This document shows, piece after piece, positions 1 through 40,151 of a DNA stretch of 64,000 bases. The first letter of the stretch is position 1; each line of letters starts with the position of its first letter. Under the pieces are notes generated by a model. The model was not told where the DNA came from. It did not search any database and worked only from the letters and a program-made list of their open reading frames with translations. The position numbers and the translations under genes are program-made. The stretch comes from an uncultured Cohaesibacter sp. (lineage in GTDB: Bacteria; Pseudomonadota; Alphaproteobacteria; Rhizobiales; Cohaesibacteraceae), in the NCBI RefSeq assembly GCF_963664735.1, contig NZ_OY761553.1, positions 1,813,303-1,877,302 of the forward strand. Direction: 5' to 3'.

Positions 1-1071
1 GAGCTGGTTCAGAAATACGCCATTGCGGCTGCTGGTGGATCGCAGCCGGATGCGCTCTCTCTTGACCTGATCTTTACACCGAGCTTCGCACAGGCTGGCC
101 AGTTGAAAGATCTGACTGAGTGGGCAAAGTCCCTGCCTTATTATGACAAATTGTCCAAAGCGCACCTGAGCGTTGGCACCTATGAAGACAAAATCTACGG
201 CCTGCCATTCTCAGCCGATGCCTCGGTTCTTGTCTGGAACAAAAATCTTTTCAAAAAGGCCGGTCTTGATCCGGACAAAGCCCCGACCACATGGGCTGAA
301 ATTCGCAAAGACGCCGAAGCTGTTGGTGCTCTGGGTGATGACACCTATGGTTTCTATTTCTCGGGTAACTGCGGTGGCTGCAACATCTTCACCTTCACTC
401 CGCTTGTCTGGGCTTCGGGTGGCAACCTGTTTGAAGATGCCGGTGCCAAGGCGACCGTCAAGACACCACAGATGAAAGATGCTCTGGAATTCTACCGCGG
501 CATGGCCAAAGACGGCCTTGTTCCGGCAGGTGCCCAGACCGACTCCGGCTCTAACTTCTTTGCCGCGTTCGCCGGTGGCAATATCGGCCTTACGCCGTCG
601 GGCTCTTTTGCGATTGGCGCGCTTAACAATCAATATCCAGACCTTGAATATGGCGTGACCTACCTTCCCGGCAAAGACGGGAATTGGTCTTCCTTTGCCG
701 GTGGGGACAATATCGTCGTTTCCGCCGCAACGCCTGACTCAAAAATGCCAGCCATCGAAGCCTTCATCGACTTTGCCTATTCGGCTGAAGGACAGACGAT
801 CCTTGCAAAGAATGGCTCATTGCCGGTTCGTGCCGACGTTGCCGAAAAAGCGCTTGAAGGGCTCGACAGTCGTTACATGATTGCAGCCAAGGCAATGGAC
901 AAGGGCAGAACCCCTTATAGCCCGGTCTTTAACGACCTTATCAACTCCCTCAATGGCCCTTGGGTGAACATGCTCAACAAGGCCTTCTTTGCCAACAGCG
1001 AAGAAGAGGTTGATGAAGCGATGGACGATGCTCAGGAAGAAATGCAGTCCATCATCGATTCTTCCCGGTAG
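1..1071 (+). CDS. ABC sugar-binding protein, family 1, 5' end cut by window edge
   Basis: The frame is open from base 1, so the N-terminus and signal peptide lie outside the window; an internal TTG at 103 is not the start. The 356 visible residues have the look of a family 1 extracellular solute-binding protein (CUT1 systems): an LPFSADASVLVWNKNLF stretch, a FAGGNIGLTPSG segment and a C-terminal acidic helix. Such proteins sit in the periplasm and deliver a sugar or oligosaccharide to the membrane permeases. Two permeases, a GH127 hydrolase and the ATPase follow on the same strand, so the ligand is probably an arabinose-containing oligosaccharide (inference). The gene ends in SSR before a TAG. 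Confidence 0.9.
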   Translation, partial: ELVQKYAIAAAGGSQPDALSLDLIFTPSFAQAGQLKDLTEWAKSLPYYDKLSKAHLSVGTYEDKIYGLPFSADASVLVWNKNLFKKAGLDPDKAPTTWAEIRKDAEAVGALGDDTYGFYFSGNCGGCNIFTFTPLVWASGGNLFEDAGAKATVKTPQMKDALEFYRGMAKDGLVPAGAQTDSGSNFFAAFAGGNIGLTPSGSFAIGALNNQYPDLEYGVTYLPGKDGNWSSFAGGDNIVVSAATPDSKMPAIEAFIDFAYSAEGQTILAKNGSLPVRADVAEKALEGLDSRYMIAAKAMDKGRTPYSPVFNDLINSLNGPWVNMLNKAFFANSEEEVDEAMDDAQEEMQSIIDSSR

Positions 1072-1096
1072 ATCCTCCAAATATCTACCTATAAGA

Positions 1097-1124
1097 ACCG
1101 CCGGCTGAGCTTTCAGTCGGCGGT
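1097..1124 (+). promoter_or_regulatory. Intercistronic hairpin after binding-protein gene
   Basis: ACCGCCGGCTGA and TCAGTCGGCGGT form a 12-bp stem with one G-U pair around a GCTT loop. It is followed by a C-rich stretch with no T-run, so it is probably an mRNA-stabilising or partial-termination element. Such hairpins commonly lie between a binding-protein gene and its permease genes and keep binding-protein expression high. Confidence 0.6.
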
Positions 1125-1159
1125 GCCCCTTACGCTCCACCGCATCAAAGGATCACACC

Positions 1160-2089
1160 ATGACGGACAGTCTCATGGCAGGCCCGGAGACACCTGTGCC
1201 CCCCCGCCGCAGGCGACGCAGGAATTCACAATGGAACGGATTGCTTTTCGTTCTGCCAGCGCTTTTGCTTGTAACAATCTTTTTTATCGTGCCACTCGGC
1301 ATGGCCGCCTGGATGTCATTTCACAAATGGCCCCTCATGGGTATTCCCCGTTGGGTCGGCTTTGCCAATTACGAGCGCCTGCTACATGACAAGAGCTTCT
1401 GGTCTTCCCTGTGGTTCACAATCGAATATACCGTTGTCATCACGATTGGTCTGCTTGGCGTCGCGATGGTTCTGGCGTTGATTGTTCAGGGACAAAGCAA
1501 GGCGATTGCCGCTTACCGCACAATCTTTTTCCTGCCGGTGGTAACCGGGTTTGCATCTGCTGCGCTGCTGTGGGTTTGGCTGTCAAACGTCGACACAGGG
1601 CTGTTTTCTCCGCTTGCCCAAGACATCGGCCTGACCTCGGATCGGGTCAACATTCTGGCAAGCTTCACCCCCGCCTTCTGGTCGGTCATTGCCATGGTGA
1701 TTTGGAAAATGGCTGGCTTTTATATGGTGATCCTGATGAGTGGCCTGCAGGCCATTCCGACCGACTATATCGAAGCGGCGCGCATTGATGGCGCCAAATG
1801 GGGGCAGCGCTTCCGTTTCATCATCATGCCGCTCATCCGCAAACCGTTTGCGTTGGCTCTCATCCTCTGCATCTCGGGATCGATGCTAGCCTTTGACCAG
1901 TTCTATATCATCCTCAGCGGTGGTCCGCGCAACCAGACCGTTACTGCGGTTTACAAGATCTTCAACGAAAGCTTTGTTTCATTCCGCCTTGGTTATGGCG
2001 CAGCCCTGTCCATGGTTCTGCTGCTCATTCTGCTGGTGCTGAGTGTCATTCAGCTGGCGTTTCTGAGTGATAAGGGGCCGAAAAAATGA
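1160..2089 (+). CDS. Sugar ABC permease, MalF-like
   Basis: A 309-residue inner-membrane permease of the CUT1 family. A basic N-terminal tail with six consecutive Arg residues precedes the first membrane helix (NGLLFVLPALLLVTIFFIVP). Several further helices follow, with the EAA-type loop around IPTDYIEAARIDGAKWGQRF, where the ATPase docks. It pairs with the next gene, which overlaps its stop by four bases (ATGA), so the two are translationally coupled. Sugar specificity cannot be read from the permease; the adjacent GH127 enzyme suggests beta-arabinosides. Confidence 0.92.
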   Translation: MTDSLMAGPETPVPPRRRRRRNSQWNGLLFVLPALLLVTIFFIVPLGMAAWMSFHKWPLMGIPRWVGFANYERLLHDKSFWSSLWFTIEYTVVITIGLLGVAMVLALIVQGQSKAIAAYRTIFFLPVVTGFASAALLWVWLSNVDTGLFSPLAQDIGLTSDRVNILASFTPAFWSVIAMVIWKMAGFYMVILMSGLQAIPTDYIEAARIDGAKWGQRFRFIIMPLIRKPFALALILCISGSMLAFDQFYIILSGGPRNQTVTAVYKIFNESFVSFRLGYGAALSMVLLLILLVLSVIQLAFLSDKGPKK

Positions 2090-2985
2090 ATGCCGTGACT
2101 TTTCCCACTCATACAGCCTCTGCGACGCCCGCTCCGACAGAGCGCAAGGGCCGCTATCGCTATCACAAGCTTCTTTTCCATGTGACAGCAACGCTCGTTG
2201 CCCTTATTTTTCTAGCGCCGTTGGTGTGGGTGGTCCTTTCCAGTTTCCGCTCGCCAGCCGAATCCACCCAGCCGCCAATTCCACCTTGGCCGACGGATGG
2301 GTTCAGCACATCAAGCTATGACCGGCTCGAAAATTTTGGTCAGTCGGTATTGCATTATTCGGGCAACTCGCTGTTTGTGGCAGTTGGCACCTCTGCGCTT
2401 ACCATCGTTGTTGCCCTGTTGGCTGGCTATGGCTTCTCGCGCTATCGCTTTCCGTTCAAGGGCTTTGCCTTCGTGCTGATCCTGTCGACGATGATGATCC
2501 CGTTCCAGTCGATCCTCACCCCCCTGTTCCTGCTACTGGCCAAGATGGGGTTGCAAAATACGCTCATCGGTCTGGTATTCATCTACACCACGCTGCAACT
2601 GCCCTTCTCGGTCTTCATGATGCGCAACGCTTTTGACGCTGTACCCAAGGAAATCGAGGAAGCAGCCCGCATGGACGGGGTCAAGGGCTGGCGCATGCTG
2701 GTACAGGTCATGGGGCCGCTGGTGCTGCCGGGCGTCGTGACGGTTGGCCTGTTTGCCTTCCTCAATGCCTGGAACGAGTTTCTTGCAGCCCTCGTGCTGC
2801 TGACGGACCAAAGCAAATTCACTTTGCCAGTTCTCATGACCGCTGTTCAACACGGCCGTTATGGCTCGGTGGATTGGGGTGCCGTGCAGGCCGGGGTCAC
2901 GCTGATGATGATCCCTTGCATGATCCTCTTCCTCATTCTTCAACGCTCTTACATCAGAGGCCTCACGGCCGGTGCAGTTAAATAG
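2086..2985 (+). CDS. Sugar ABC permease, MalG-like
   Basis: A 299-residue permease forming the heterodimeric channel with the preceding gene product. It has six predicted helices and the EAA loop in VPKEIEEAARMDGVKGWRML, and ends in RGLTAGAVK as many MalG homologues do (the GLTAGAVKG-type tail). The start ATG overlaps the upstream stop. The GH127 gene begins 26 bases downstream, so all are likely on one transcript. Confidence 0.92.
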   Translation: MNAVTFPTHTASATPAPTERKGRYRYHKLLFHVTATLVALIFLAPLVWVVLSSFRSPAESTQPPIPPWPTDGFSTSSYDRLENFGQSVLHYSGNSLFVAVGTSALTIVVALLAGYGFSRYRFPFKGFAFVLILSTMMIPFQSILTPLFLLLAKMGLQNTLIGLVFIYTTLQLPFSVFMMRNAFDAVPKEIEEAARMDGVKGWRMLVQVMGPLVLPGVVTVGLFAFLNAWNEFLAALVLLTDQSKFTLPVLMTAVQHGRYGSVDWGAVQAGVTLMMIPCMILFLILQRSYIRGLTAGAVK

Positions 2986-3011
2986 GCACCCTCCGCAAAA
3001 GGACAAATCAA

Positions 3012-4946
3012 ATGAACAAGACTCCTTCTTCCAATGCTGGTGAGGCGATGCAACCGAAGGCAAAATTCCGCCCTCTTTCGGTCAATCAGATCGAAGTCAA
3101 CGGCTTTTTCGGTCCCAAGCTCGATGTGATTGCGACAACAACGGCAAAAATCCTGTTTGACCGCTGCATCGAAGCGCGGATGCTGGAACAAGTGGACCCC
3201 GACCTGCCCAATCCGGGCGTTGTGATACCATTCCAGCATAACAACACTGTCACCACCCAGATGTTCTGGGACTCAGACTTCGGCAAAAGCATCGAAACGG
3301 CAGCTTATGCGCTCAATAGAAAACGCGACCCCGAGCTTGAAGCCCGTGTCGACGAGGTGATTGACGCCTATGGCCGCCTGCAGGCCGAGGACGGCTATCT
3401 CAACAGCTGGTATTTGCGCATTGAGCCGGGCAAGCGCTGGACGAACCTGAGAGACCGTCACGAGCTTTATAATGCTGGCCATCTGATGGAAGGGGCCATT
3501 GCCTACTATCACGCAACCGGCAAACGCAAGTTCCTTGACATCCTATGCCGCTATGCGGATTGCATCGACGCCACCTTCGGGCCGGAAGCTGGCAAGAAGC
3601 GCGGCTATCCGGGGCATCCGGAGCTTGAGCTGGCGCTCATCAAACTTGGCCGTGTGACCGGTGAGCAGCGCTATCTGGATCTTGCCAAATTCTTTGTTGA
3701 TGTACGAGGCGAAAAACCGAGCTATTTCGATGCAGAGGCTCTGGCCCGCGGAGAAAAACCCGAAGACTTCCATTTCTCGACGTTGAAATATTGTCAGGCA
3801 CACGAGCCCGTCAGGGAACAGCGAGAAGTGGTCGGCCATGCAGTGCGCGCAGCCTATCTCTATGCAGGCATGGCAGACGTTGCGACCGAATTTTCCGATG
3901 CCAGCCTTGATCCGGCCCTTGAAGCGCTCTGGACCCATCTCACCGAGCGCAACCTTTATGTGACCGGCGGCTTTGGCCCCTCAAAAGACAATGAGGGTCT
4001 GACCTTTGATTATGACCTGCCCAACGATAGCGCCTATGCGGAAACCTGCGCAGCGGTAGCATTGGTTTTCTGGGCTAGCCGTATGTTGGGTCGGGGGCCC
4101 GACGCCCGCTTTGGCGATGTCATGGAGCGCGCGCTCTATAACAACGTACTTGCAGGCCTCTCCGATGACGGCTGCCAATTCTTCTATGACAACCCGCTGG
4201 AAAGCCATGGCGACCATCACCGGTGGCGCTGGCATCGTTGCCCCTGCTGCCCACCAAACGTTTCTCGCCTGATCTCCTCTATCGGCACCTATTTCTATGG
4301 TGTATCGGAGGATGAAATTGCCGTGCATCTTTATTGTGACAACAGGGCTGAACTGAAGGTTGCCGGTGTTGATCTGACGCTATCACAGAGCACGAAATAT
4401 CCTGCCGATGGTCTCGTCACCTTTGGCATCGATCCGAAAGCGCCGACAGAGTTCAAGCTTTCGCTTCGCGTCCCGGAGTGGGCCGATGGCTACAGTCTGA
4501 CGCTTAACGGCGAAGCGCTCGATGCCAAACCGGAAAAGGGCTATCTTCGCCTTGATCGCACATGGCAGGCTGGCGACAAGCTGACCCTTGCGTTTGATAT
4601 GCAGCCGCACAAACTCTATGGCAACATCCAGATCGCACCGGATCAGGGACGCACCGCATTGCTGCGCGGACCGATGGTTTATTGCATCGAGAGCGCCGAT
4701 CACGACGCCCCGCTGAACAGCTACATAGTCAAGGATGCAGTTCCAATTGCGACGACCGAATGTGCCAGCTGGCCGAATACTGTTGCCTTGTCGGTGGACG
4801 CATGGGTCGAATATCGCCAAGACAACGCCCTTTACAGCACAACCCCGCCATTACGGAAGTCTGCAACACTCAAGGCGATCCCCTACTATCTGTGGGACAA
4901 TCGCGAACCGGGCGAAATGCTCGTCTGGATCCGCAGGGAGGCATGA
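3012..4946 (+). CDS. GH127 beta-L-arabinofuranosidase (DUF1680)
   Basis: A 644-residue protein with the catalytic and metal-site pattern of glycoside hydrolase family 127. Glu328 matches the general acid/base of HypBA1. Glu344-Thr-Cys346 and Cys410-Pro-Cys412-Cys413 match the zinc ligands, with Cys412 the expected nucleophile. These enzymes release beta-L-arabinofuranose from oligosaccharides of hydroxyproline-rich glycoproteins and related glycans. I see no signal peptide, so it probably acts in the cytoplasm on sugars imported by the flanking ABC transporter. The start has AAGGAC eight bases upstream. Exact substrate linkage is inferred from the family; some relatives act on other arabinosides or on 3-C-carboxy sugars. 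Confidence 0.88.
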
Positions 4947-4948
4947 CG

Positions 4949-6046
<1,098 letters not shown>

Positions 6047-6221: not shown

Positions 6222-6983
6222 ATGAGCACCTTGCAGCAAGCTTTGGACAAACTTTATCCCGGAATATTCATCGAAGATGCAATGACTGTCGTCCAGTCAA
6301 TCTTGCAGCCATTTGGCTTTGATGTATCAACCTACGATTATTCGCCTGTACCGCTGACGTATGAAGGCGAATTTATCGTTCCGACCGTCTACTCTATGCA
6401 GAACGCACCAAGCGATATGGAAGATCTCTGGTGCGGAGAGCGCTATTATGCCCATGATCCCGTCATGGATGCATCTCGCGAAATTACACGTCCCTTTTAC
6501 TGGACATATCATGATCGTCAGAGCAACATCATGGAAAAGGTGCTGGACGAGAGACATGGCCGGGTCATCGACTATCTGTGCGACACTGGCATGGAATGCG
6601 GCATTACAGCCCCCATTCGCTGCCCAGATGGCGCATTAGCGACTTTCACGGCAATCAGCACGACCAAAATCGGCAATTCAGATCTGGAAAACGCCCTCTC
6701 CTCAATGGGTTATCTGGCCCATGCCTTGCACGATGCCATCGTTGCCGGCTTCCCCAAACAAGCCTTTGAGACACCTTATGTTTCTTTGACCAAACGGGAA
6801 AAGCAGTGCCTTCAACTTTGCGGCCAAGGGATGACAGCCAAAGAAATCGCGCACTATCTTAACCGTTCGGTGCCCACCGTTACGTTACACCTCACCTCAG
6901 CCACCAAGAAGCTCGGAGCGCGCAATCGCTTTCATGCTCTGGTACTCGCCTCTCACTACAAACTGCTCAACACCTACAACTAG
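6222..6983 (+). CDS. LuxR solo of the plant-responsive OryR/PipR type
   Basis: A 253-residue regulator with an N-terminal autoinducer-binding domain (about residues 20-160) and a C-terminal LuxR helix-turn-helix (about 188-243, LTKREKQCLQLCGQGMTAKE). No luxI-type synthase is visible. Aligned on the conserved Asp-Pro (Asp79) and Trp94, the residues at TraR positions 57 and 61 are Met66 and Trp70 instead of Trp and Tyr. That pair of substitutions marks the solos that do not bind acyl-homoserine lactones but respond to plant-derived compounds (OryR, XccR, PsoR, NesR, PipR). As in those systems, a proline iminopeptidase gene lies immediately downstream. As with PipR, a peptide-type ABC transporter is adjacent. 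Ligand and target are inferred. Confidence 0.9.
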   Translation: MSTLQQALDKLYPGIFIEDAMTVVQSILQPFGFDVSTYDYSPVPLTYEGEFIVPTVYSMQNAPSDMEDLWCGERYYAHDPVMDASREITRPFYWTYHDRQSNIMEKVLDERHGRVIDYLCDTGMECGITAPIRCPDGALATFTAISTTKIGNSDLENALSSMGYLAHALHDAIVAGFPKQAFETPYVSLTKREKQCLQLCGQGMTAKEIAHYLNRSVPTVTLHLTSATKKLGARNRFHALVLASHYKLLNTYN

Positions 6984-6993
6984 AAACAGCAAA

Positions 6994-7013
6994 ACCTATA
7001 AAATTCCATAGCT
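6994..7013. promoter_or_regulatory. lux-box-like operator between luxR-type gene and pip
   Basis: The 20-bp sequence ACCTATAAAATTCCATAGCT has the 6-8-6 layout of a lux box. The arms ACCTAT and ATAGCT are inverted repeats at five of six positions, and the classical form is ACCTGT-N8-ACAGGT. Its centre is about 71 bases upstream of the pip start. It is the natural binding site for the LuxR-type protein encoded just upstream, by analogy with XccR-pip. I find no second copy near the luxR-type gene or dap. Confidence 0.6.
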
Positions 7014-7074
7014 TTTAGCAGATGCAGAAATGTGATCTGATTTGTTTCGAATATTGAATAGTAGGATTCATTCC

Positions 7075-7980
7075 ATGTCAGATTTTGAAGTTCAAGAAGG
7101 CTTTTCCCCCTATCAGGGTTATAAAACCTGGTACCGTATCAGTGGATCTCTGGATTCAGAGAAACTACCTCTCATTGTAGCCCACGGGGGGCCTGGCTGT
7201 ACCCACGACTATGTCGACAGCTTCAAAGATCTGGCAAAAACGGGGCGTCCGGTCATTCATTATGACCAAATTGGCAACGGTAAATCCACGCACCTGCCTG
7301 AAAAAGGGATTAATTTTTGGACAGTTGACTTTTTTTTAGGCGAACTGGACACATTACTTAAGCATTTGGGCATTCAGGATCGCTACGCCTATCTGGGTCA
7401 GAGCTGGGGTGGAATGCTGGGATCCGAACATGCCGTACGCCGCCCCAAAGGGCTCAAGGCTCTGGTAATCGCAAACTCTCCTTGCTCAATGCAGGTGTGG
7501 CTCAAAGGGGCCGCAGACCTCAGGGCCGAGCTACCGCAGGATGTTCAAAACACCTTGTTGTTGCACGAAAGGGCGGGCACGATTGACCACCATGATTACA
7601 AGGCAGCCACTCAGGCCTTTTATGATCGCCATGTCTGTCGGTTGCAGCCAACTCCGCCTGAAGTGAAGGCTACCTTTGATGCGATGGACGAAGATCCCAC
7701 GGTCTATCGTGCCATGAATGGTCCAACCGAATTCCATGTTATCGGAACCCTGAAGGACTGGTCGGTTATAGACCGCCTTCACAATATCACGGCCCCGACC
7801 CTTGCTTTTCGCGGTGCCTATGATGAAGCCACAACGGAATGCCTCAAGCCATTCTGGGAAAATATCCCCGATGTGACGGCGCACGTATTCCCCAATTCCA
7901 GTCACATGCCACATGTAGAAGAGAGAGAAGATTGCATGGCAGTCGTCGAAGCCTTTTTGGCAAAGTATGATAGTGAGTAA
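7075..7980 (+). CDS. pip: Proline iminopeptidase, peptidase family S33
   Basis: A 301-residue alpha/beta hydrolase of the proline iminopeptidase family. The oxyanion-hole motif HGGPG, the nucleophile elbow GQSWGG, an acidic residue in RGAYDEAT and the catalytic His in SSHMPHVEE are all present. Such enzymes remove N-terminal proline or act as amidases on small peptide-like compounds. I choose the ATG at 7075, which has AGGA eight bases upstream; an in-frame TTG at 7042 is unlikely. No signal peptide is seen, so it acts in the cytoplasm. It follows the LuxR solo and lux-box-like site and sits four bases before the peptide permease genes, fitting an operon that imports and cleaves a peptide-like molecule. 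Confidence 0.88.
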   Translation: MSDFEVQEGFSPYQGYKTWYRISGSLDSEKLPLIVAHGGPGCTHDYVDSFKDLAKTGRPVIHYDQIGNGKSTHLPEKGINFWTVDFFLGELDTLLKHLGIQDRYAYLGQSWGGMLGSEHAVRRPKGLKALVIANSPCSMQVWLKGAADLRAELPQDVQNTLLLHERAGTIDHHDYKAATQAFYDRHVCRLQPTPPEVKATFDAMDEDPTVYRAMNGPTEFHVIGTLKDWSVIDRLHNITAPTLAFRGAYDEATTECLKPFWENIPDVTAHVFPNSSHMPHVEEREDCMAVVEAFLAKYDSE

Positions 7981-7983
7981 CTG

Positions 7984-8925
7984 ATGCTAGGTCGCTATCG
8001 CTTTATCCTGTTTCGCCCAATTCAGCTGTTGCCGGTGTTGTTCGGCATATCGGTTGTCACCTTCATCCTCGTGCGGCTCATTCCCGGAGATCCTGCACGC
8101 GTGTTGCTTGGTACGCGCTCGACCCCGACAGCCTTGGCAAAAATCCGGGCCCAATATGGGCTGGATGAACCGATGGTGATGCAATATTTCTACTTTATCA
8201 AAAATCTGTTTCACGGCGAGATGGGGCGCTCAACCCTTTACAAGGTTGACGTCCTCAAGCTGATTGCGACCCGCATCGAGCCGACCTTGATGCTGGTCTT
8301 CTTCGCGGTGCTCTTGTCGTTGCTGATTGCAGTTCCTCTGGCGGCCATGTCTGCACGCAATCAGGGCAAGGCCCCCGACCACATGACCCGTATTTTCGTA
8401 ACGGCAGGATTGGGTTTCCCTCAATTCTGGCTTGGCGTCATGCTGATCATTTTCTTCTCGATTTATCTCGATTGGCTTCCGGTTTCGGGCTATGGCAAAA
8501 CCTATGCCGACAAGTTGACCCACCTGATCCTGCCTGCCCTTACCATCGCACTATCGCTCTCCTCGGTGATAACGCGCAGCCTGCGGTCGGCTATGATTGC
8601 CGGTTTGAGTTCAGACATTGCGACATCTGCACGCGCGCGTGGCGTGTCTGAAAACCAGGTCTTCTGGCGCCATGTGGTGCCAAACGCTCTGGTCCCGACC
8701 ATCAACCTGCTTGCAGTCAACATCGGGTGGCTGATCGGCGGCACGGTGGTCATCGAAAGCGTGTTCGCTTTGCCCGGCATGGGCCAATTGCTGGTCCGGG
8801 GCATTTTCTCCCGCGATTACATGGTCGTGCAAGGTGTGGCCATGGTGTTTGCCGTTGCAACGCTGGTGATCAACTTCCTGGCCGACATTCTGACCACGGC
8901 TCTTGATCCGAGGGTGAAATTCTGA
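7984..8925 (+). CDS. Peptide ABC permease, DppB/OppB type
   Basis: A 313-residue permease of the dipeptide/oligopeptide family. It has the typical N-terminal helix (LLPVLFGISVVTFILVRLIPGDPA), a large periplasmic loop and the EAA region near SARARGVSENQVFWRHVVPN. It is the first subunit of a peptide or nickel type importer and overlaps the next gene by one base (TGATG). Its position directly after pip ties transport to proline iminopeptidase and the LuxR solo. Confidence 0.9.
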   Translation: MLGRYRFILFRPIQLLPVLFGISVVTFILVRLIPGDPARVLLGTRSTPTALAKIRAQYGLDEPMVMQYFYFIKNLFHGEMGRSTLYKVDVLKLIATRIEPTLMLVFFAVLLSLLIAVPLAAMSARNQGKAPDHMTRIFVTAGLGFPQFWLGVMLIIFFSIYLDWLPVSGYGKTYADKLTHLILPALTIALSLSSVITRSLRSAMIAGLSSDIATSARARGVSENQVFWRHVVPNALVPTINLLAVNIGWLIGGTVVIESVFALPGMGQLLVRGIFSRDYMVVQGVAMVFAVATLVINFLADILTTALDPRVKF

Positions 8926-9779
8926 TGGCACAAACAACAGCATTCCGCATCCCTATGCCCAAATGGCGTGCCCTGATGAGCCGCAACCTGACGCTGACCC
9001 TTGGCTTCTGCATTCTGGCATTCTTCGTTCTGATGGCGTTCCTTGCGCCTGCGCTGGCTCCCTACGATCCTATCTTGCAGGATGCCAGTGCACGGCTTGT
9101 CGGGCCATCGTGGCTTCATCCATTCGGGACGGACAATTTCGGGCGCGATGTGCTCTCCCGCGTCATGTGGAGCGTACATATCGATTTGCAAATTGCGCTT
9201 ATCGGTGTCCTTTTCCCGATGATCATCGGCACGATACTGGGCACACTGGCCGGCTTTATGGGGGGCGTCGTTGATACGATCCTGATGCGCATCATCGATA
9301 TCGTGCTGGCCTTTCCGTTTCTGGTGTTGATGCTGTCCATCATCACCATTCTGGGGCCGGGGCTGGTAAGCTTCTATATCGCCATGGCGCTGGTTGGCTG
9401 GGTCAGTTATGCCCGTCTGGTGAGGGCGCAAATTCTGGTGCTGAAAACCATGGATTTTGCCGTTGCTGCTCAGAGCCTTGGCTATTCGAATATGCGCATC
9501 ATGTTCAAGCACCTCCTGCCGAACGCGCTGACCGGATCGATTGTGTTTGCCATGTCCGATGTCATTCTGGTTCTGTTGAACGGTGCGGCGATCAGCTATC
9601 TTGGTCTGGGCGTGCAGCCCCCCATTGCAGAATGGGGCATCATGGTTGCTGAAGGTCAAGGCTTCATCTCGCAGGCCTGGTGGATCACCTTCTTCCCCGG
9701 GGTATCCATCGTCATTCTCGCGCTTGGTTTTTCCCTGCTGGGCGATGCTCTCGGCGACTTGTGGGAGGCCAAGGTATGA
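8925..9779 (+). CDS. Peptide ABC permease, DppC/OppC type
   Basis: A 284-residue second permease subunit. The LAPYDPILQDASARL and HPFGTDNFGRDVLSRV segments are hallmarks of DppC-type proteins, and the EAA loop lies around AAQSLGYSNMRIMFKHLLPN. It is translationally coupled at both ends: TGATG with dppB and ATGA with the fused ATPase gene. Confidence 0.9.
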   Translation: MAQTTAFRIPMPKWRALMSRNLTLTLGFCILAFFVLMAFLAPALAPYDPILQDASARLVGPSWLHPFGTDNFGRDVLSRVMWSVHIDLQIALIGVLFPMIIGTILGTLAGFMGGVVDTILMRIIDIVLAFPFLVLMLSIITILGPGLVSFYIAMALVGWVSYARLVRAQILVLKTMDFAVAAQSLGYSNMRIMFKHLLPNALTGSIVFAMSDVILVLLNGAAISYLGLGVQPPIAEWGIMVAEGQGFISQAWWITFFPGVSIVILALGFSLLGDALGDLWEAKV

Positions 9780-11443
9780 GCAACATTCTCTCCGTAAGCA
9801 ATCTTTGCGTTGCCTATCAGGACAATGTGGAAACCCGGTCTTTGCTTGAAGACATCACCTTCGAGCTTGGACAGTCTGAAATTCTCGGCCTTGTGGGCGA
9901 AAGTGGGTCCGGCAAGAGCCTTCTTTGCCGCGCCATCATCAGGCTGCTACCCTCTCCCAAGCTTTCCGTCACCGGTGGCGTTGTCGATCTGGAAGGGCAA
10001 TCCTTGCTCGAGCTTGATGATCGCGCCATGATGAAGGTACGCGGACGCCGGATTGGCATGATTTTCCAAAACCCGACAAGCCACCTTGATCCGGTGATGC
10101 GCATAGGCGATCAGATCTGCGAAGGCCTGATCCAGCACGGATCCTATACCAAGGCGCAAGCCAAAGAGCAGGCGATCGAGCTTCTTGATCAGGTCGGTTT
10201 CCCCGACCCTGCAAGGGCTTTCAAAAGCTATGCTCATGAATTTTCCGGAGGCATGCGCCAACGTGCCATGATCGCAATTGCTCTATCTTGCGAGCCGGAA
10301 ATCCTGATCGCCGACGAGCCCACCACCGCTCTTGACGTGACAGTTCAGGCGCAAATTCTGGAGCTTCTTGTGGAGCTGCGGCAAAAGCGCGGTCTTTCGA
10401 TTATTCTCATCACCCACGATCTGGGCGTCGTTGCACAAACCTGCGACCGGATTGCGGTTATGCGCGATGGGCGGATCGTCGAGATTGACGAGAAACGCAA
10501 GTTGCTCGCCTCCCCGACCCATGAATATACAAGGACGCTCATAGGCTCTCATCCTTCCTTTGATGCACACATCGCCCATGATGAACATGGCGAGGCTGAA
10601 GATGAACACGGCGCGATCAAGCCGATTTTCGAGGTTGACGATCTTGTGGTGGAATTCAACACCAGTAAGGGCTGGTTTAGTGGCAAGCAGGCTTTCCGGG
10701 CGCTTGCAGGTGTCAGCTGTCAGATATTCCCCGGCGACACGGTCGGCATTGTAGGCGAAAGTGGATCGGGCAAAAGCACCATGGCGCGCGCCATGCTTGG
10801 CCTGACGCCGGTTTCATCGGGCCACATCACCTATGACGGCTCGGTGTTGACCTTGGAAAAGGAAATAGCACTCAAGCGACTGCGCAAAGAAGTCGCGATG
10901 GTGTTTCAGGATCCGTTCAACGCGCTCAATCCGCGCATGTCTGTTGAAGCGGCCTTGCGCGAAGTGTTGATCACCCAAGGTGAGTGCACCAAGGACAAAA
11001 TCGATGGCCGCATCGACGAACTGCTTGATCTGGTCGGCCTTGACAGGAGCTTCAGACCAAGACGACCCAAAAGCCTATCGGGTGGCCAGTGCCAGCGCGT
11101 CGGTATCGCGCGCGCCCTCGCGGTCAATCCGAAAGCCATTATTGCCGATGAATGTGTCGCGGCACTCGACGTGACAATTCAGGCGCAGATTATCTCCCTA
11201 TTCAAGGACCTGCGGGAAAAGATGGGCCTGACGATCATTTTCATCGCCCATGATCTCGCAATCGTCCGCGAGCTTTGCGAATCCGTGATCGTGATGCATC
11301 ACGGGCGCATCGTAGAAAAAGGCAGCACCGAAGAAGTATTTGAAAATCCAAAACAAGCTTATACCGCCAATCTGCTTTCCGCGATCCCGAATATCGATCC
11401 GGACAAGCCTCTTGGCTCCAAATTGGCAGCCCTCGCAGAATAG
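9776..11443 (+). CDS. Fused dual-ATPase of peptide ABC transporter (DppD-DppF type)
   Basis: A 555-residue protein with two complete ATPase modules. The first (about residues 1-265) has Walker [10 protein letters not shown], signature [15 protein letters not shown] and Walker [14 protein letters not shown]. The second (about 285-545) has [25 protein letters not shown] and [13 protein letters not shown]. In the second, the Walker B aspartate is followed by Glu-Cys rather than Glu-Pro. OppD/OppF-type ATPases are usually two proteins; single-chain fusions as in GsiA are known. The start at 9776 overlaps the permease stop by four bases. Confidence 0.9.
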
Positions 11444-11482
11444 GGCCTTTCCATAATGCTGAACAGAAGGAACACAGATCCA

Positions 11483-13000
11483 ATGCTTAAAAAGATTTCG
11501 CGAGTGGGCCTTATTGCGCTCACCCTTGCTATGGGCGCGGTTACCGTGGCAGACGCTGCAGGCGTATTGTCCATCGGCCGCCGCGAGGACTCCAGCACCT
11601 TTGACCCGATCAACACCGCGCAGAACATCGACTTCTGGGTATTCATGAACGTTTATGACGTGCTCGTTCGCGTTGACAAATCCGGTTCCAAGCTGGTTCC
11701 TGGTCTTGCTGAATCCTGGGACATTTCCGACGATGGCCTGACCTACACACTTCATCTTCGTGATGCCAAATTCTCTGATGGCTCACCGATCACGTCTGAA
11801 GATGCAAAATTCTCTCTGGAACGCATCCGCGACGACGAACTGTCTCTGTGGTCCGACACCTACAAAATCATCACCAACATCGAAACTCCGGACGCCAAAA
11901 CCGTTGTGATCACTCTGTCCGGCCAGTCCGCTCCGTTCCTCTCCACCCTTGCTATGCCGGGCACCTCCATCATTTCAAAGGCTGGTTTTGAAAAGATGGG
12001 TCAGGAAGCCTATGCCGAAAACCCGGTTGCTTCTGGTGCATTTACGGTCAAGGAATGGCTCCGCGGCGACCGCGTTATTCTGGAGAAAAATCCGGAATTC
12101 TGGCAGGCTGACAAGGTAAGTCTTGATGGCGTTGAATGGATTTCCATGCCAGACGACAACACCCGTATGATGGCTGTTCAGGCTGGTGAGCTGGACGCAG
12201 CGATCTATGTTCCGTTTTCCCGCGTGACCGAGCTCAAGAAAGACCCGAACCTGACGCTTCACATCGAGCCATCAACCCGTGAAGACCATCTGCTGATGAA
12301 CCACGAACATGCTCCGCTCGACAATGTTCATGTACGCGCAGCTATCGATTATGCAATCGACAAGCAGAGCATCGTTGATGCCGTTACCTTCGGTCAGGGC
12401 ACCGTTGCAAACAGCTACATTCCAAAAGGCGCTCTTTACCACAGCGATGACAATGGCGCTCGTCCATATGACGTTGAAAAGGCAAAGGCTGAGCTGAAAG
12501 AAGCTGGCGTTGACAACATCTCTCTCGACTATCTGGTTAGCGCTGGTAACGAAGTTGAAGAGCAGACAGCCGTTCTCATCCAGCAGCAGCTCGCTGCCGT
12601 TGGCATCACCGTTAATCTGATCAAGATGGACGCCAGCCAGACCTGGGACATGCTTGTTGATGGCGATTATGATCTGTCCATGAACTACTGGACCAACGAC
12701 ATTCTCGACCCTGACCAGAAAACGACCTTTGTTGTTGGTCATGACGTCAACATGAACTACATGACCCGCTACAACAATGAAAAGGTCAAACAGCTGGTAG
12801 CTGATGCCCGTCTCGTGCTGGACCCGAAAAAACGCGAAGAAATGTATTTCGAAATCCAGAAACTGGCAAAAGCCGACGCGCACTGGATCGACCTGTACTA
12901 CAGCCCGTTCATCAACGTCTCCGCAAAATATGTCAAAAACTTCGACCAGAATCCACTTGGTCGCTTCTTCCTGGAAGACACTGTAAAAGAAGCCAAATAA
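11483..13000 (+). CDS. Peptide-binding periplasmic protein, SBP family 5
   Basis: A 505-residue secreted solute-binding protein of the DppA/OppA family. The signal peptide (residues 1-25) probably ends at ADA-AG. The body has family hallmarks such as LAESWDISDDGLTYTLHLR and a late VRAAIDYAIDKQSIVD helix. I choose the ATG at 11483; a preceding in-frame ATG at 11456 would spoil the signal peptide. It delivers peptides, or a peptide-like signal, to the permease and ATPase encoded just upstream. It is the last gene of the pip transcript and ends at a strong bidirectional terminator. Confidence 0.9.
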   Translation: MLKKISRVGLIALTLAMGAVTVADAAGVLSIGRREDSSTFDPINTAQNIDFWVFMNVYDVLVRVDKSGSKLVPGLAESWDISDDGLTYTLHLRDAKFSDGSPITSEDAKFSLERIRDDELSLWSDTYKIITNIETPDAKTVVITLSGQSAPFLSTLAMPGTSIISKAGFEKMGQEAYAENPVASGAFTVKEWLRGDRVILEKNPEFWQADKVSLDGVEWISMPDDNTRMMAVQAGELDAAIYVPFSRVTELKKDPNLTLHIEPSTREDHLLMNHEHAPLDNVHVRAAIDYAIDKQSIVDAVTFGQGTVANSYIPKGALYHSDDNGARPYDVEKAKAELKEAGVDNISLDYLVSAGNEVEEQTAVLIQQQLAAVGITVNLIKMDASQTWDMLVDGDYDLSMNYWTNDILDPDQKTTFVVGHDVNMNYMTRYNNEKVKQLVADARLVLDPKKREEMYFEIQKLAKADAHWIDLYYSPFINVSAKYVKNFDQNPLGRFFLEDTVKEAK

Positions 13001-13064
13001 GACCTTTCAGCGCACAGCCCCTTTTTAGCGGTGCGCTGATTTATTCCTCGATCGGGAAACTCAA

Positions 13065-13099
13065 AAGCCCGCAGCAATCAGATGAATTGCTGCGGGCTT
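13065..13099. terminator. Bidirectional terminator between convergent genes
   Basis: AAGCCCGCAGCAAT and ATTGCTGCGGGCTT form a perfect 14-bp stem around a 7-base loop. On the minus strand the stem runs into TTTTGA, ending dap transcription; on the plus strand it follows the peptide-binding protein gene. Confidence 0.85.
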
Positions 13100-13126
13100 A
13101 CCTATTTTATCCTGCCAGTTGCGGAA

Positions 13127-14680
13127 CTAGAGGCGACGATAGGAAAGTTTACGCGCCAGCCAGCAGCCAACAACCAGACTTTCTATTTTGCCGGAAGCAT
13201 CGCGTTTGGCAGAAACGGTCCAGTTGCCCGGAGCCGGAGCGTCCATTGAGCGGCGGGTAACCATCACCCATGTATCAGGCCCGACCGGATGAACCCGTTC
13301 CATGATCCCCTCGCCCAGAACACCTTCGCAAACGGCATATAATCCGCCATCTTCAGCCAGAATGGTGAGGGTTGCGTCCAGCTCGTCGGTGTAATAGCGA
13401 CCGGCAAGGTCTCCACCTGACGAATAAGGTTCGGTTGCTAGCGGTTCCAGAACAGATGTCAGATTTTCGTCTGCACGGGTCATAACCGTTTTATCGCCAT
13501 CGTGAGCGACGGTTACATCGCCCCCCTTGAGACAGCCATCCGCACTCATATTGAGGGCATCACTGCCTGTGGCATTGTGTAGAAGTGCGCCCTTCTTGCC
13601 GGTTTCGATGTTCACGAGCAAACCGGTTTCCGGACAGATCCACTGCCCTTCCCAACTGTCGGGCACGGTTTCCAATGCCGGATCTTCATAGCCCAAAGCG
13701 GCTTTGAAAAGGGATGCTGCGGCACCGAAGGAATCCGCTTCATGGTTGAAATTGACATAGACAGACAAATGTTCCGAAGCGCAATGCATGCGGAAAGAAC
13801 GGAAGCCACGCAGGGCGCCGCCATGTCCGGTCACCTTGCGGCCAGCCACCTCCATATGGGCCAGTCCATAGCCATAGGCGGCCGGTGTGCCATCCTTGAA
13901 GGTCGGAGGAACAGAAAGGCGCTGATAAAGCCCATCAGGATTGCCGACTGTTTTGTCGATCCAGCTTTCATAAGCCATCATGTCTTCAAGGGAGGCGGAA
14001 ATACCTGCATCACCGAACCAGTAGATGCCGTTGTCCGCAGGCATGTAACCGGCAGTTGGGCTTCCCTCATAACCGACCACACCGTCGGCGGTCACGCGAC
14101 TATCGGAAAGCAATGCGGCAGTTTTCATACCCGCTGGCCCCCAGATGATTTCGCTGATCAGCCCCTTGAGCCTGCGGCCGGTTTCCCGCTCGATCAATTC
14201 GCCAACCAGCCGGAAGTTGCCATTGCAATAGGAATAGCTGGTGCCCGGCTCGAAGTGGCCGGTTTTCATACGGGAGAACATCGCATAGGCATCATCGCGC
14301 GTGAAGGTCTGCTCGGCCTTGGCACCTTGCAAGATTGTCAGAGCCCAATAGTCGCGCAAGCCCGACTGGTTGTGACACAGCTCCTGAACGCTGGGCAAGG
14401 GGCCTTCAAAATGAGGCAGCAACTCGGGAAGCCGCGCGTTGAGGGGAGCAAAATCCTTGAACTGATCCAACAGGACACCGCATGTGAATTGCTTCGAAAT
14501 CGAGCAGATCGGCAACCGGGTTGCGGTTGTCATTCTCCGGTGGGCGGCAAGATCTGAGTAACCCCAGGCACGAAGGGCGATGACCTCTCCATCCTTGACA
14601 ACACCGGCGACACCACCCGGGCCCGGATGAAGATGGGGAAGTGCATCTAGGGCACATTCCAACTTAGCTAAATCGACCAT
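13127..14680 (-). CDS. dap: D-aminopeptidase, serine peptidase family S12
   Basis: A 517-residue protein that I recognise as a close relative of the D-stereospecific aminopeptidase of Ochrobactrum anthropi (about 520 residues). Catalytic residues of the penicillin-recognising fold are in place: Ser60-x-x-Lys63 (ICSISKQF), Tyr151-Cys-Asn153 and His286-Gly-Gly (TGHGGALRG). The two C-terminal beta-barrel domains follow, ending in GCWLARKLSYRRL. It removes N-terminal D-Ala and similar residues from short peptides or amides. No signal peptide is visible, so it is cytoplasmic. It converges on the peptide transporter operon, which suggests that D-residue peptides, perhaps from peptidoglycan or host peptides, are imported and trimmed. 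Confidence 0.9.
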   Translation of the reverse strand: MVDLAKLECALDALPHLHPGPGGVAGVVKDGEVIALRAWGYSDLAAHRRMTTATRLPICSISKQFTCGVLLDQFKDFAPLNARLPELLPHFEGPLPSVQELCHNQSGLRDYWALTILQGAKAEQTFTRDDAYAMFSRMKTGHFEPGTSYSYCNGNFRLVGELIERETGRRLKGLISEIIWGPAGMKTAALLSDSRVTADGVVGYEGSPTAGYMPADNGIYWFGDAGISASLEDMMAYESWIDKTVGNPDGLYQRLSVPPTFKDGTPAAYGYGLAHMEVAGRKVTGHGGALRGFRSFRMHCASEHLSVYVNFNHEADSFGAAASLFKAALGYEDPALETVPDSWEGQWICPETGLLVNIETGKKGALLHNATGSDALNMSADGCLKGGDVTVAHDGDKTVMTRADENLTSVLEPLATEPYSSGGDLAGRYYTDELDATLTILAEDGGLYAVCEGVLGEGIMERVHPVGPDTWVMVTRRSMDAPAPGNWTVSAKRDASGKIESLVVGCWLARKLSYRRL

Positions 14681-27831: not shown

Positions 27832-30800
27832 CTAGTTGGCTGATCCGCAAGAAAAGACGTTGGCGCTGCCGCCAAAACAAACCGCTCTGCTTAGCTGGGG
27901 ATCTTCGAGCAGAAGGCCTTCGGAATTGTTGTCAGTCTCCTCATCGTCACTCATCCCCAAAGACCGGTCAAAGGACATCATCTGCCCATCGGATACGGTG
28001 GTGAAGGCGCCTGTATGTTCATTGGACAGGCTGCCCAGAAGCAAGCCTGCAAGCGCTTCCCCATTCTGACTGTTTACCGTCAACAGACCGGTCTTGTAGG
28101 TGATTGCGTAGTTGGACAGACCTGTCCCGGAGGCGTTGTTGGCTGCGATGGAATAGCTGCCGACGCTGGCACTGGCATCGGCACCGGCAGAACTCAGGCT
28201 GACCGAGGTGACCGCGTCACTATTGACCAGACCGGATGTCGAATAGGTCAGCGAAGCGGTTTTGCCATAGGTCTTGGTAACATCAGACGCTGTGATGGTC
28301 AGAGAAGCAGGATCAACAGTCAGGGTGCCTGCCTTGTAGGTAATCGTATAGTTGGACAGACCTGTCCCGGACGCGTTGTTGGCTGCGATGGAATAGTCGC
28401 CGACGCTGGCACTGGCATCAGAACCGGTGGAGCTCAGGCTGACCGAGGTGACCGCGTCACTATTGACCAGACCGGATGTCGAATAGGTCAGCGAAGCGGT
28501 TTTGCCATAGGTCTTGGTAACATCAGACGCTGTGATGGTCAGAGAAGCAGGATCAACAGTCAGGGTGCCTGCCTTGTAGGTAATCGTATAGTTGGACAGA
28601 CCTGTCCCGGACGCGCTGCTGGCAGAAATAGAATAACTGCCGACGCTGGCACTGGCATCAGCACCGGTAGAGCTCAGACTGACCGAGGTGATCGTGTCAT
28701 CATTGAGAAGGCCGGAGACCGAGTAGCCAGAAAGATTTGCCGCCTCTCCATAGGTCTTGGTAGCATCAGACGCCGTGATGGTCAGAGCGGCAGGATCGGC
28801 GGTCAGAGTGCCTGCCTTGTAGGAGATTGTGTAGTTGGACAGACCTGTCCCGGAGGCGTTGTTGGCTGCGATGGAATAGTTGCCGACGCTGGCACTGGCA
28901 TCAGCACCGGTAGAGCTGAGACTGACCGAGGTGACCGTGTCATCATTGAGCAAGCCGGAGACCGAGTAGCCAGAAAGATTTGCCGCCTCGCCATAGGTCT
29001 TGGTAGCATCAGACGCCGTGATGGTCAGAGCGGCAGGGTCGACAGTCAGGGTTCCGGTCTTGTAGGAAATCGTGTAGTTGGACAGACCTGTCCCGGAGGC
29101 GTTGTTGGCTGCGATGGAATAGTTGCCGACATTGGCGCTGACATCAGCGCCAACAGAGCTGAGACTGACCGAGGTGATCGTGTCATCATTGAGAAGGCCT
29201 GAAACCGCATAGTCGAGGTCTGTGTCTTGCCCGTAGGTCTTGGTCACATCGGAAGCCGTAATGGTCAGAGACGCCGCATCCACCGTGAGGGTGCCAGCCT
29301 TGTAGGTGATGTCATAGTTGGAATTGCTAAGCGTTCCCAACCCGATCGCATATGAACCAACATTTGCATCAGCCGCAGCCCCGTCGCTGGACAGGGAACC
29401 TGTCAGACTATCTCCATTGAGCAATCCTGATGTTGTATAGGTCAGCGAAGCGGTTTCGCCATAGGTCTTTGATGTAGACGTGGCGGTGACTGTCAGCGCA
29501 GCCTTATCGATTGTTGCACTGTCCGAGCCATAATAGACAACGCGGTAGGTGACGCCGTTTGTGCTGGTCGCGGTTCCGTTGCCGCCATTCACGGTTATCG
29601 TTTTTGTCCCCGCGGCAGCGGTTTCATCAAAGGAGATATTAATATCCGTCAATGTTAGACTGTCGCCATTTTGACCAAAGACATAACTATCTGTACCGCC
29701 CACATATGAGGTGACAGCGTCCAGGCTGGCCGTACTGTCACCATAGGTGGAGGAGGTTGACCCCGCGCTGACCCAGACAACTGCAGACAGGGCATAAAGC
29801 TCCGGATAATAGCCTTCGCTCGATGGAGCCCAGTTGGTGGTAAAATCCCATCCTGCAGCTGAAGCCAGCATATAAAAATAGTCGCTATCCTGAAACTTGG
29901 CCGTGGTCAGGCCGGTGACACCGGTATGGGTTCCGCCGCCAATTCCTATATAAGTTCCCGTTGTGTCGGTGTCGAAATAGGAATTACTGATGCTGCCATC
30001 ATTATTGTAACCGACCAGCCCGCCCACATCGCTGTAACCTGCCACTTCCCCTATTGCGTAGGAATTGCTGATTGTTGCCGCGTTAAAGCCGACCAGGCCG
30101 CCGACAGAATCGCCGTCGCCTTCCACCGCGCCTGTTGCATAGGAATTGCTGATTCCAGCCCCGATACTCTCGCCTGCCAATCCGCCGACAAAGTCGTTGT
30201 GGCCCTTCACCGCGCCTGTTGCATAAGAATTGCTGATCGTTCCATCATTCATCCCCACCAGTCCGCCGACAGAATTGCCGCCGCCTTCTACCGTGCCAGT
30301 TGCATAGGAATTGCTGATTGTTCCCTCAGAATTCTGACCAACTAGTCCGCCGACATACTCGCCGCCACCATTGACCGCACCTGTCGCATAAGAATAGCTG
30401 ATTGTTGCCTCACTATAGCCAACCAGTCCACCAACAGCAAACGAGCCGCTTTCCACCGCACCAGTCGCATAGGAATAGCTTATCGCTCCTCCTCCTATCG
30501 CGTAACCAACCAGCCCACCGATAGAGTAACTATCACCAGTTACCTCTGCATCCGAATGGGAATAACTGATTGTGCCTCCATTATTCATACCGGCCAGTCC
30601 ACCTACGTAGGAGTGACCAGACACCTCCCCGGTCACATAGGAATACGAGACTATTCCGGCATTGTAACCAACCAACGCTCCAACGTATGTATTTCCTGCA
30701 ACGTCAGCATCCACCAGCCCGATATTGCGAATGGTCCCCGTAGAATAGCCAAACAGAGCGGCATAGTTGCTACTGCCCTCAACCGTCAGATTGGAGATCG

Positions 30801-36670: not shown

Positions 36671-39600
36671 ATGACTTCAACGAACTTTGATCATTTAAAG
36701 AGCCTCAGCCCGCAGCTTCATAAGCTGGGCGTTCTGGCCGAGCGCTTTTTCAGTCAGGATGCCAACACATCACTCATGAAGAGCCGTCAGTTCATGGAGC
36801 TGATGGTTAAAGAGGTCGCGGCTCTTTCTGGGCAGTATGACGAGCAGCGGCAAGAAAGCACCCACGACCTTATAAAGCGCTTGTCGGCACTGCAGATCCT
36901 GCCGCACGAGGTTGCCAGCGTCTTCCACGCAGTCCGCAAGCTTGGGAATCAGGCGGTGCATCAGTTTGATGGTGAAGCGCGAGATGCTCTTTCGGCTCTA
37001 AAATTCTGTCGGTCCCTCGGTGTGTGGTATCGCTGGTCATTTGGCAAAGACCCTGGTTTCAAGCCGGGTCCCTTCGTCCCACCCAAAGAACCGGAAGACG
37101 CAAGCGCTGCCCTCAAGGCGGATCTTGAGCGACTACGCGATGAGATCAGGCAAAAGCAAGCAGCACTGGTGGCTGCACAGGTTGAGACGGAAGAGCTGAA
37201 GAAAGCCCAGGCAGCCTTTGAGGAGATGGCCAAGCAGGCCACCGAAGACCTCGCGATCTGGGAAGAGACTGCAGCCGAGCAGGAAGCCAATGCTTTGGCC
37301 CTTGCCAAGGAGCTGGCAGCGCTTCAGGAAAAGGCACAGGCCGAACCGGAGCAAACCCATCGAGAGCGGCAGCATGCATCCCGTAGCGCGGCTGCCAAGC
37401 TGGAGCTTGATGAACAGGACACGCGCATTCTCATTGATGCTCAGCTCATGGAAATGGGGTGGGAAACAGACTCGACATCACTTCGCTATAGCCATGGAGC
37501 ACGTCCCGAAACCGGGAAAAATCGAGCAATTGCCGAATGGCCGACAGCGTCTGGTCCCGTCGATTATGCTCTATTTGTCGGCCTGATCTGTGTCGGTGTC
37601 ATTGAAGCCAAGCGGGAAGCGCTGGATGTCCCTGGCGTACTGGTTCAGGCTCGCAGATATGCGCAGGATATAAAACTCGATCCCGAAAACCTTCACGCAG
37701 ATGCACCCTGGACGCATGGTCTGGAAAATCCGTTCCGCGTTCCCTTCGTCTTTGCCACGAACAGTCGCCCCTATGTGCGCCAATGGAAGAACAAATCCGG
37801 GATATGGCACTGCGATATGCGCCAGACCAGCAACAAGCCGGATGCGCTTTCGCAATGGTTCTCGCCACAAGACCTTTTGCAAAAGCTCAAGACCAACGTG
37901 GACGCGACAGCCAAGGGACTGGCGGAAGACAGCTTTGGAAAGGGGAAATTACGCCCCTATCAGGAAGAAGCCGTCTATTCCATTGAAGAGGCCATCAGCA
38001 AGGGGCAGAAAGACATCCTCATTTCGATGGCAACGGGAACCGGCAAGACCCGAACCGCGATCGCACTGATGTATCGTCTGCTCAAGCATTCCCGTTTCCA
38101 TCGGATTCTCTTTCTTGTCGACCGTCGCGCCTTGGGCAAACAAACCGAGGATGCTCTGGAAACTACCGAGCTTGAAGGACTGCTGAACTTTGCCCAAATC
38201 TATGGTGTCGCAGGACTTGGCCAAAAGCTGCCAGAGGCAGAGCAGCGCGTTCAGGTGGCGACCGTTCAGTCCATGATCGCACGGATCGAAGGCGAAGAAG
38301 ATGTCAGCGCTCGCCCGACACCGGGGACGTATGATTGCATCATCGTGGATGAGGCTCATAGAGGTTACACTCTGGACGCCGACCTCAAAGAAAGCGAGAT
38401 TTCGTTCCGCAGCCTTGAGGATTATCAGTCAGCCTATCGTCAGGTGCTGGATTATTTTGATGCTGTCAGGATTGCCCTGACGGCGACTCCAGCGCTGCAT
38501 ACGCGTGAGATCTTCGGCCACCCGGTCTATCATTATGGCTATCGTCAGGCCGTGATCGAAGGATACCTCATCGACCATCTGCCGCCCCGACGCATCACCA
38601 CTGCCCTGGCAGAAGCGGGCATTCATTTTGATGGTGGGGAAGAGGTGGAGATACTGGATCGCAAGACCGGACAGCTCGATTTGTTCTCACTGCCTGATGA
38701 TGTGGATCTTGACTATGATCTGGCCCAGTTCAACAGCAAGGTCTATTCGGAGAATTTCAACCGGGTGGTTTGTCAGGCCTTAGCGAGAGAGATCCCACCG
38801 AGCAAACCGGGCAAGACGCTGATCTTTGCTGCCCGTGATGACATGGCCGATGATATCGTCCGGCTTCTGCTTGAGGAATTGCAGGACGAGTATGGCATCG
38901 ATGAAGTGCCTGCTGCCATGGTGCAGAAGATCACCGGCAAGACGGACAAGCCACAAGACCACATTCTGCGCTTTAAGAATGACGCAATGCCGAAATACGT
39001 GGTGACCGTCGATCTGCTGACAACCGGCATCGATGTGCCATCCATCTGCAACCTCGTCTTCATGCGCAGGGTTAAGAGCCGCATTCTCTATGATCAGATG
39101 ATTGGTCGCGCTACGCGCCTTTGCCCTGACATCGGCAAGGAGCATTTCAAAATCTATGATGCCGTCGATGTCTATGCGGAATTGCAGGAGATGTCGGACA
39201 TGCGCCCGGTTGTCACCAAGCCTGACCTTTCGCTGGGGCAGTTGGTAACCGATCTGTTCAATGCACCAGATGATGAAGACAGGGATTGGGTCGCCGGCCA
39301 GGTTATCGTCAAGATGCGCAATCTGGCAGGTCATATCGATGAGCAAACGCAGGAGAGCTTTGAGCGCACGACGGGCCAGACAGCCACTGCAGCCGTGCAG
39401 GATCTATCTCAGAAGTCATCGCTTGAGCTGATTGACTGGCTCAAGGCCAATCCCCTTGCGGTTGAGCTATTGGAGCGCAGGCCGGTTAAAACCTACAAGG
39501 GCGGCGATGGTGTGACGATCTCCCATCATGACGATGAGCTGCTGCGCATCGAGGAAATCTTCGGCAAGAACACCAAGCCGGAAGACTATATCGAAGGTTT

Positions 39601-40084: not shown

Positions 40085-40151
40085 GCTGTCCGACTCACTT
40101 ATCTGCCGCTATAGCTTTATTCTGATTCACTAATTTGAAAACGGTCCCGCC

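Follow-up and report, generated by a model that had tools for sequence, protein, structure and literature searches.

LuxR-type regulators of the pip-linked (PAB) group, their proline iminopeptidase partner, the accompanying peptide importer and the pip box are already known (PMC4981722, PMC10134790, PMC4338825). In Pseudomonas GM79, the published site lies at -71.5 from the pip start, a transporter mutant was unresponsive, and peptidase mutants responded more (PMC4981722). The stretch of DNA analysed here (64,000 nucleotides, hereafter the window) belongs to a single 4.94-Mb contig (C1) of an uncultured Cohaesibacter sp., and harbors a luxR-pip-peptide importer operon at 6222–13000, all on the + strand, with a convergent D-aminopeptidase (DAP) gene at 13127–14680. 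This unit is likely to be an import-and-cleave circuit, of the PAB-LuxR/Pip kind, that its own substrate induces. Two features were not met with in the publications found and are regarded as new: the Cohaesibacter cassette with a single box, a single strand and DAP, and the repeated association of DAP with such loci. A literature search, with most subscription papers outside its coverage, returned no publication in which DAP, proline iminopeptidase and LuxR occur jointly. The unit consists of the following features:

6222..6983, + strand: luxR, LuxR-type regulator of the pip-linked (PAB) group, with autoinducer-binding and LuxR helix-turn-helix domains (PF03472, 74 bits; PF00196, 54 bits)
6994..7013, + strand: pip box ACCTATAAAATTCCATAGCT, a palindrome with its centre 71.5 bases upstream of the pip ATG
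7075..7980, + strand: pip, PipA-type proline iminopeptidase (TIGR01250, 243 bits)
7984..8925, + strand: importer permease of the AapB type (PF00528, PF19300)
8925..9779, + strand: second importer permease (PF00528, PF12911)
9776..11443, + strand: fused importer ATPase with two ATP-binding cassette (ABC) domains (PF00005, two stretches)
11456..13000, + strand: AapF-type periplasmic binding protein (706 bits to AapF, 7kz8)
13065..13099, no strand assigned: inverted repeat of 14–15 pairs between the convergent genes, probable terminator for both
13127..14680, - strand: DAP (NF009622, 703 bits; 1ei5, 494 bits)

The luxR, pip, permease, fused ATPase and binding-protein genes all lie where the original prediction had put them. 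The DAP gene was overlooked in it; the end that it gave for the cluster, 14680, is that of this convergent gene. The start of pip was placed at the ATG at 7075 (the mechanical open reading frame opens at a TTG, 7042), and the binding-protein gene could instead begin at an inner ATG, 11486. From pip to the ATPase gene the intergenic gaps are 3, -1 and -4 bases. The inverted repeat probably terminates both convergent genes; taken as a class, sites of this type do not stand out from the shuffles (15 found; shuffled mean 10.6, sd 3.7).

Similar to the PipR-PipA-AapA system of GM79 (L038), the window encodes a LuxR of the same group, PipA and an orthologous importer with an AapF-type binding protein, and has its box at the same distance, 71.5, as is obtained when the GM79 sequence is measured likewise. 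In contrast to the window, GM79 has two separate ATPase genes and no DAP in the 18.8 kb read; its pair of alpha/beta-hydrolase peptidases (PipA and AapA), its second box for aapA and the importer, its divergent layout and the Trp/Trp pair of PipR were not found in the window. The rhizobial NesR-type Pip loci (for example Rhizobium etli p42b, L012; Sinorhizobium meliloti pSymB, L015) resemble the window in having a Met/Trp LuxR, PipA, a fused ATPase and an AapF-type binding protein 70% identical to that of the window, but they differ in the presence of AapA, in an importer pointing away from luxR, and in having no DAP in the stretches read.

Alignment to TraR (1h0m) bore out the residues named in the original prediction: Met66 and Trp70 of the window LuxR stand opposite TraR Trp57 and Tyr61, and Asp79 and Trp94 are retained opposite Asp70 and Trp85. 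Across 114 aligned LuxR rows, the pocket pair is Met/Trp in 36 (including the window), Trp/Trp in 60 and Trp/Tyr in 15 (including TraR), three rows falling in no residue class (a second hit in L081, L117, L123). The Trp/Trp rows, of which 59 are titled Pseudomonas and one is a metagenome-assembled genome (MAG) titled Paucimonas, include PipR of GM79, in agreement with the published pocket (PMC4981722, PMC7301841). PipR of Pseudomonas thus lacks the Met/Trp pair, and at these positions the window LuxR is like OryR and NesR and unlike PipR.

For phylogenetic analysis, 140 profile hits were reduced to 113 non-duplicate rows (minimum 30 bits and 180 residues), thinned by k-mer similarity to 60 and supplemented with two typed anchors. 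In the resulting 62-row tree, which was rooted at its midpoint and in which several rows outside the pip-linked group are long, the window LuxR falls within a 43-row pip-linked group that includes GM79 PipR (support 98/93). Its nearest relatives are those of other Cohaesibacter, followed by MAG L022, Mesorhizobium and Aureimonas (nine rows, 100/98); the best named relative is that of Cohaesibacter haloalkalitolerans (70%). Outside the group are the LuxR encoded beside LuxI in the same genome, a second solo of this genome, TraR, LasR and, from GM79, another LuxR (L113), which by elimination corresponds to the PpoR homologue of PMC4981722. Tree and residues together support the proposed membership in the pip-linked (OryR/NesR/PipR) group: the protein separates from the AHL (acyl-homoserine lactone)-type LuxRs tested, the tree covering PipR and not OryR. 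The placement among AHL receptors that would have overturned the original prediction was not seen. Among the genomes of the class, this LuxR was found in 3 of 289 (E 1e-30), and on plasmids matches are given for the best 50 of 153 records.

The absence of a nearby luxI was confirmed, the single LuxI of the genome (C1:1,754,885–1,755,394) being encoded about 64 kb upstream. A solo that listens to this resident LuxI through its AHL product would have a partner at that distance; the LuxI gene, however, adjoins a luxR of its own whose product carries Trp/Tyr, while the window protein carries Met/Trp and belongs to the pip-linked group, which makes such a solo highly improbable. A third luxR (C1:1,791,179) has no adjacent luxI. 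All three autoinducer-binding LuxR genes and the only LuxI gene found in the contig span about 66 kb (C1:1,754,026–1,820,039). The second solo keeps Trp/Tyr and is followed by the genes of a peptide-type ABC transporter (fused ATPase, binding protein, two permeases), and then by TRAP transporter genes (7072–13770 of L019, C1 about 1,791,070–1,797,770).

The exact pip box lies within the 91-base gap between luxR and pip, and none of 20,000 dinucleotide shuffles of the gap reached its score (11), a result that is not blind since the pattern was derived from related loci. In the 4.94-Mb genome the exact pattern occurs twice, versus 20 occurrences of a backward control pattern. A wider regulon based on the exact box was considered and rejected, as the sole other copy sits at the 3' end of one gene, the product of which resembles a chemotaxis receptor in sequence. 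Upstream of 92 pipA entries (window included), the best 20-mer scored 11/11 in 63, 10 in 10, 9 in 14 and lower in five, so that at least 9/11 was reached in 87; the consensus was drawn from these same loci, and two of them (L006 and L032) are one genome. With an OryR-type box in front of the adjacent pip gene, no paired luxI, and the domains, residues and tree position described above, the window regulator would classify as a PAB LuxR solo.

The pip product is 57–71% identical to the products of PipA-position genes of other genera, and 32–37% to those of AapA-type genes. In a search of the genome with GM79 AapA, only the PipA-type gene of the window was matched (35% identity; threshold E 1e-5), and no AapA adjoins the unit in any of the five Cohaesibacter copies. 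AapA-type genes elsewhere carry a second box: 56 of 62 entries reach a score of 9 or higher within 200 bases.

The best solved match of the binding protein is AapF (the next match has 198 bits), and it is 65.5% identical to the GM79 protein; these values support its assignment as an AapF orthologue. The AapB-type permease is 64–76% identical to the permease of AapF loci in other genera. The Asp equivalent to DppA Asp408 is conserved in 34/34 AapF-type proteins, while at the site of DppA Arg355 only one of the 34 has Arg, and the window protein has Ser (the alignment is gapped nearby). Asp408 and Arg355 hold the amino and carboxylate ends, respectively, of the dipeptide bound by DppA; with Asp408 kept and Arg355 mostly lost, a ligand having an amine end and no free carboxylate, HEHEAA for example, may therefore suit the binding protein of the window.

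Layout sets the Cohaesibacter unit apart. Everything except DAP is on one strand, and the same holds for MAG L022 up to the end of its contig, whereas the importer points away from luxR in all the other loci read that have both a luxR of the group and an AapF-type importer. As a separate observation, luxR and pip are retained in Mesorhizobium, Parvibaculaceae, Aureimonas and Nitratireductor, but the peptide-type importer beside them has a binding protein that is only 23–26% identical (L023–L030, L035, L008, L031, L042, L010); in these pip loci the importer seems to have been swapped.

The luxR of the unit was found in five of 18 genomes of the genus and five of 20 of the family, some of which are incomplete. 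In all five loci the seven genes follow one another in the same order, DAP coming last, and there is one exact box. The surroundings differ: the window has sugar genes upstream and ExbB/TonB genes downstream of the unit, and neither set was found near the other four copies, where the sequence read extends 2.5–4.2 kb beyond DAP. Directly upstream of luxR in the window (103–6046) are sugar ABC transporter genes and a gene for a GH127 beta-L-arabinofuranosidase. The plant or algal sugar neighbour that had been noticed earlier is thus real, but since GH127 was not found beside the other four copies it says little for a ligand of plant or algal origin; inclusion of the GH127 and sugar-transport genes in the unit was rejected for the same reason.

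The gene set, the families of its parts, the box at the published spacing and the conservation of the unit in five genomes are read directly from the DNA. In the proposed mechanism, the AapF-type importer would take up a small amine- or peptide-like compound, which would bind LuxR inside the cell. LuxR would then act at the single pip box to switch on pipA and the importer genes downstream, giving positive feedback on uptake; the loop would be closed down again once PipA, and probably DAP too, have cleaved the compound. By analogy with the behaviour of the GM79 transporter and peptidase mutants, import would precede sensing, pip would be activated and the signal would be degraded. The earlier claim of import, sensing and degradation is therefore supported as regards the AapF-orthologue importer, whereas the three steps themselves are carried over from GM79. 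DAP may act on the same compound as PipA, the box may drive transcription of the importer genes, and a host may be the source of the compound; these three points are inferred only.

Several points weigh against the circuit. With a Kosakonia PAB solo, HEHEAA, ethanolamine and rice-root extract all failed to elicit a pip response (PMC7301841), and HEHEAA is not bound by a close AapF homologue from another species (PMC10134790). No exact pip box accompanies the DAP gene: the scan of the window found one exact copy, in the luxR-pip gap, and no second; a box with one mismatch at 13125–13144 coincides with the 3' end of DAP, and about one such match is expected by chance. Replacement of AapA by DAP was considered and discarded, as ten other loci (seven Pseudomonas, one Rahnella and two Kosakonia, including L014) likewise lack AapA and showed no DAP either.

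The same machinery might also serve as a nutrient-scavenging operon, in which LuxR senses a common peptide or amine as food and only the biological role differs. PipR of GM79 responds to peptones and to Ser-His-Ser (PMC4981722), and Rhodobacter CZR27 has the orthologous transporter and DAP, with neither luxR nor pip in the 19.5 kb read; likewise, three genomes of another genus have AapA and the transporter, with no luxR of the group in 16 kb read. On the other hand, several studied members of the regulator group affect plant colonisation or virulence (PMC10134790, PMC4981722), and a purely nutritional role seems possible, if somewhat improbable.

DAP itself, which would be expected to cleave N-terminal D-amino acids, is assigned from its score against NF009622 (cut-off 443 bits) and from the presence of the catalytic motifs SISK, YSYCNG and GHGG of the Ochrobactrum anthropi enzyme (residue list in PMC3347556), which acts on D-alanine derivatives (PMC3347556). 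Its position recurs beyond Cohaesibacter: DAP follows AapF in convergent orientation in Neorhizobium SOG26, Rhodobacter CZR27 and three (G724, G528, G425) of the 30 Rhizobiaceae DAP loci that were fetched, out of 45 DAP places in 44 of 394 Rhizobiaceae genomes, and in Shinella HZN7 it occupies the place of pipA, downstream of luxR. Like the window, Neorhizobium SOG26 (L153) and Shinella HZN7 (L154) combine a LuxR of the group, an AapF-type importer and DAP; they differ in having AapA and a divergent layout. The Rhodobacter CZR27 locus (L009) shares an AapF-type importer 63–75% identical, and a convergent DAP 60% identical, to those of the window, and differs in its lack of luxR and pip.

These cases, together with the constant place of DAP in the five Cohaesibacter copies despite their otherwise different neighbours, speak against DAP being a mere neighbour that stands outside the circuit. 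In favour of the latter are its own strand, with no pip box upstream, and the fact that most DAP loci lie away from Pip and AapF genes: neither was found within about 1.5 kb on either side in 27 of the 30 Rhizobiaceae loci, nor in three of these 27 that were read to 18 kb. On plasmids, DAP was detected in 24 records (E 1e-80) and AapF matches are given for 40 of 151 records (E 1e-120); three plasmids are common to DAP and the listed AapF matches, and three of the other DAP plasmids, inspected more widely, showed no Pip or AapF. On balance, a bystander role for DAP is judged to be less than probable, though by no means far-fetched.

Linkage was also counted on the binding-protein tree, for which 83 rows were reduced to 34 (L003, L005 and L145 were skipped) and seven were then added. 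On the resulting 41 rows, the 11 that are DAP-linked require two changes, versus a shuffled mean of 9.9, and none of 500 shuffles was as low; this count is inflated by near-copies, and rows without DAP are those with none in the stretch read. Clearly different transporter and regulator histories in the DAP-type rhizobia were rejected as a conclusion: the tree gives hints, but the 14 rhizobial rows placed together were not rejected (p-AU 0.112), and the DAP-linked rhizobial rows are not firmly set apart from the remaining rhizobia. Co-occurrence of AapF and DAP across the class was likewise rejected. AapF was found in seven and DAP in eight of 385 genomes, with both in four; three of these four belong to one genus and have the genes on different contigs, and none of seven other DAP loci of the class that were fetched adjoins AapF. 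No relative of DAP was found in phages at E 1e-30.

Amidase-type genes were also seen at or near Pip/AapF loci: acetamidase/formamidase genes in R. etli p42b (10693–11607 of L012) and Rhodobacter CZR27 (2808–3767 of L009), and a carbon-nitrogen hydrolase gene near the Nitratireductor locus (7969–8814 of L010). They point, anecdotally, in the same direction as the DAP link.

If DAP does belong to the import-and-cleave circuit, its gene may hint at the chemistry of the imported compound. HEHEAA is, going by its name, an N-substituted glycine amide with a secondary amine, and glycine derivatives are also substrates of DAP; a compound of this structure could suit both an iminopeptidase and DAP. 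A more speculative proposal, which we regard as rather unlikely, is that of a DAP-linked Pip branch, in which importer and DAP travel together and the ligand has an achiral or D-type first residue (an N-substituted glycine amide such as HEHEAA, or a D-alanyl compound), the Cohaesibacter one-box, one-strand cassette being used with marine algal, seagrass or animal hosts; enzyme content would then predict signal chemistry. In the literature found, one compound (HEHEAA) is linked with one importer of the AapF family; a recurring enzyme of known stereochemistry beside the orthologous importer would offer an independent handle on what such systems take up.

Cohaesibacter has been described as marine and from seawater-pond sediment (PMC11251618, PMC3448135), and as a core member of benthic dinoflagellate cultures (PMC11251618). 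The genus is probably marine, and so, by extension, may be the source strain of the window. Citreicella is also marine. The suggestion of an undescribed marine version thus agrees with the probable habitat of the genus, but the pip-linked LuxR group had already been listed in 2015 in genera including Citreicella (PMC4338825). The Cohaesibacter cassette would extend the plant-signal LuxR group to probable marine hosts, and its compact, one-box form in a marine genus with cultured species makes it a simple place for tests.

Elsewhere in the window, genes for the R, M and S subunits of a type I restriction-modification system are found at 36671–43159, and a gene on the - strand (27832–32730) encodes a large protein that combines a TPS secretion domain with MBG and GLUG repeats.

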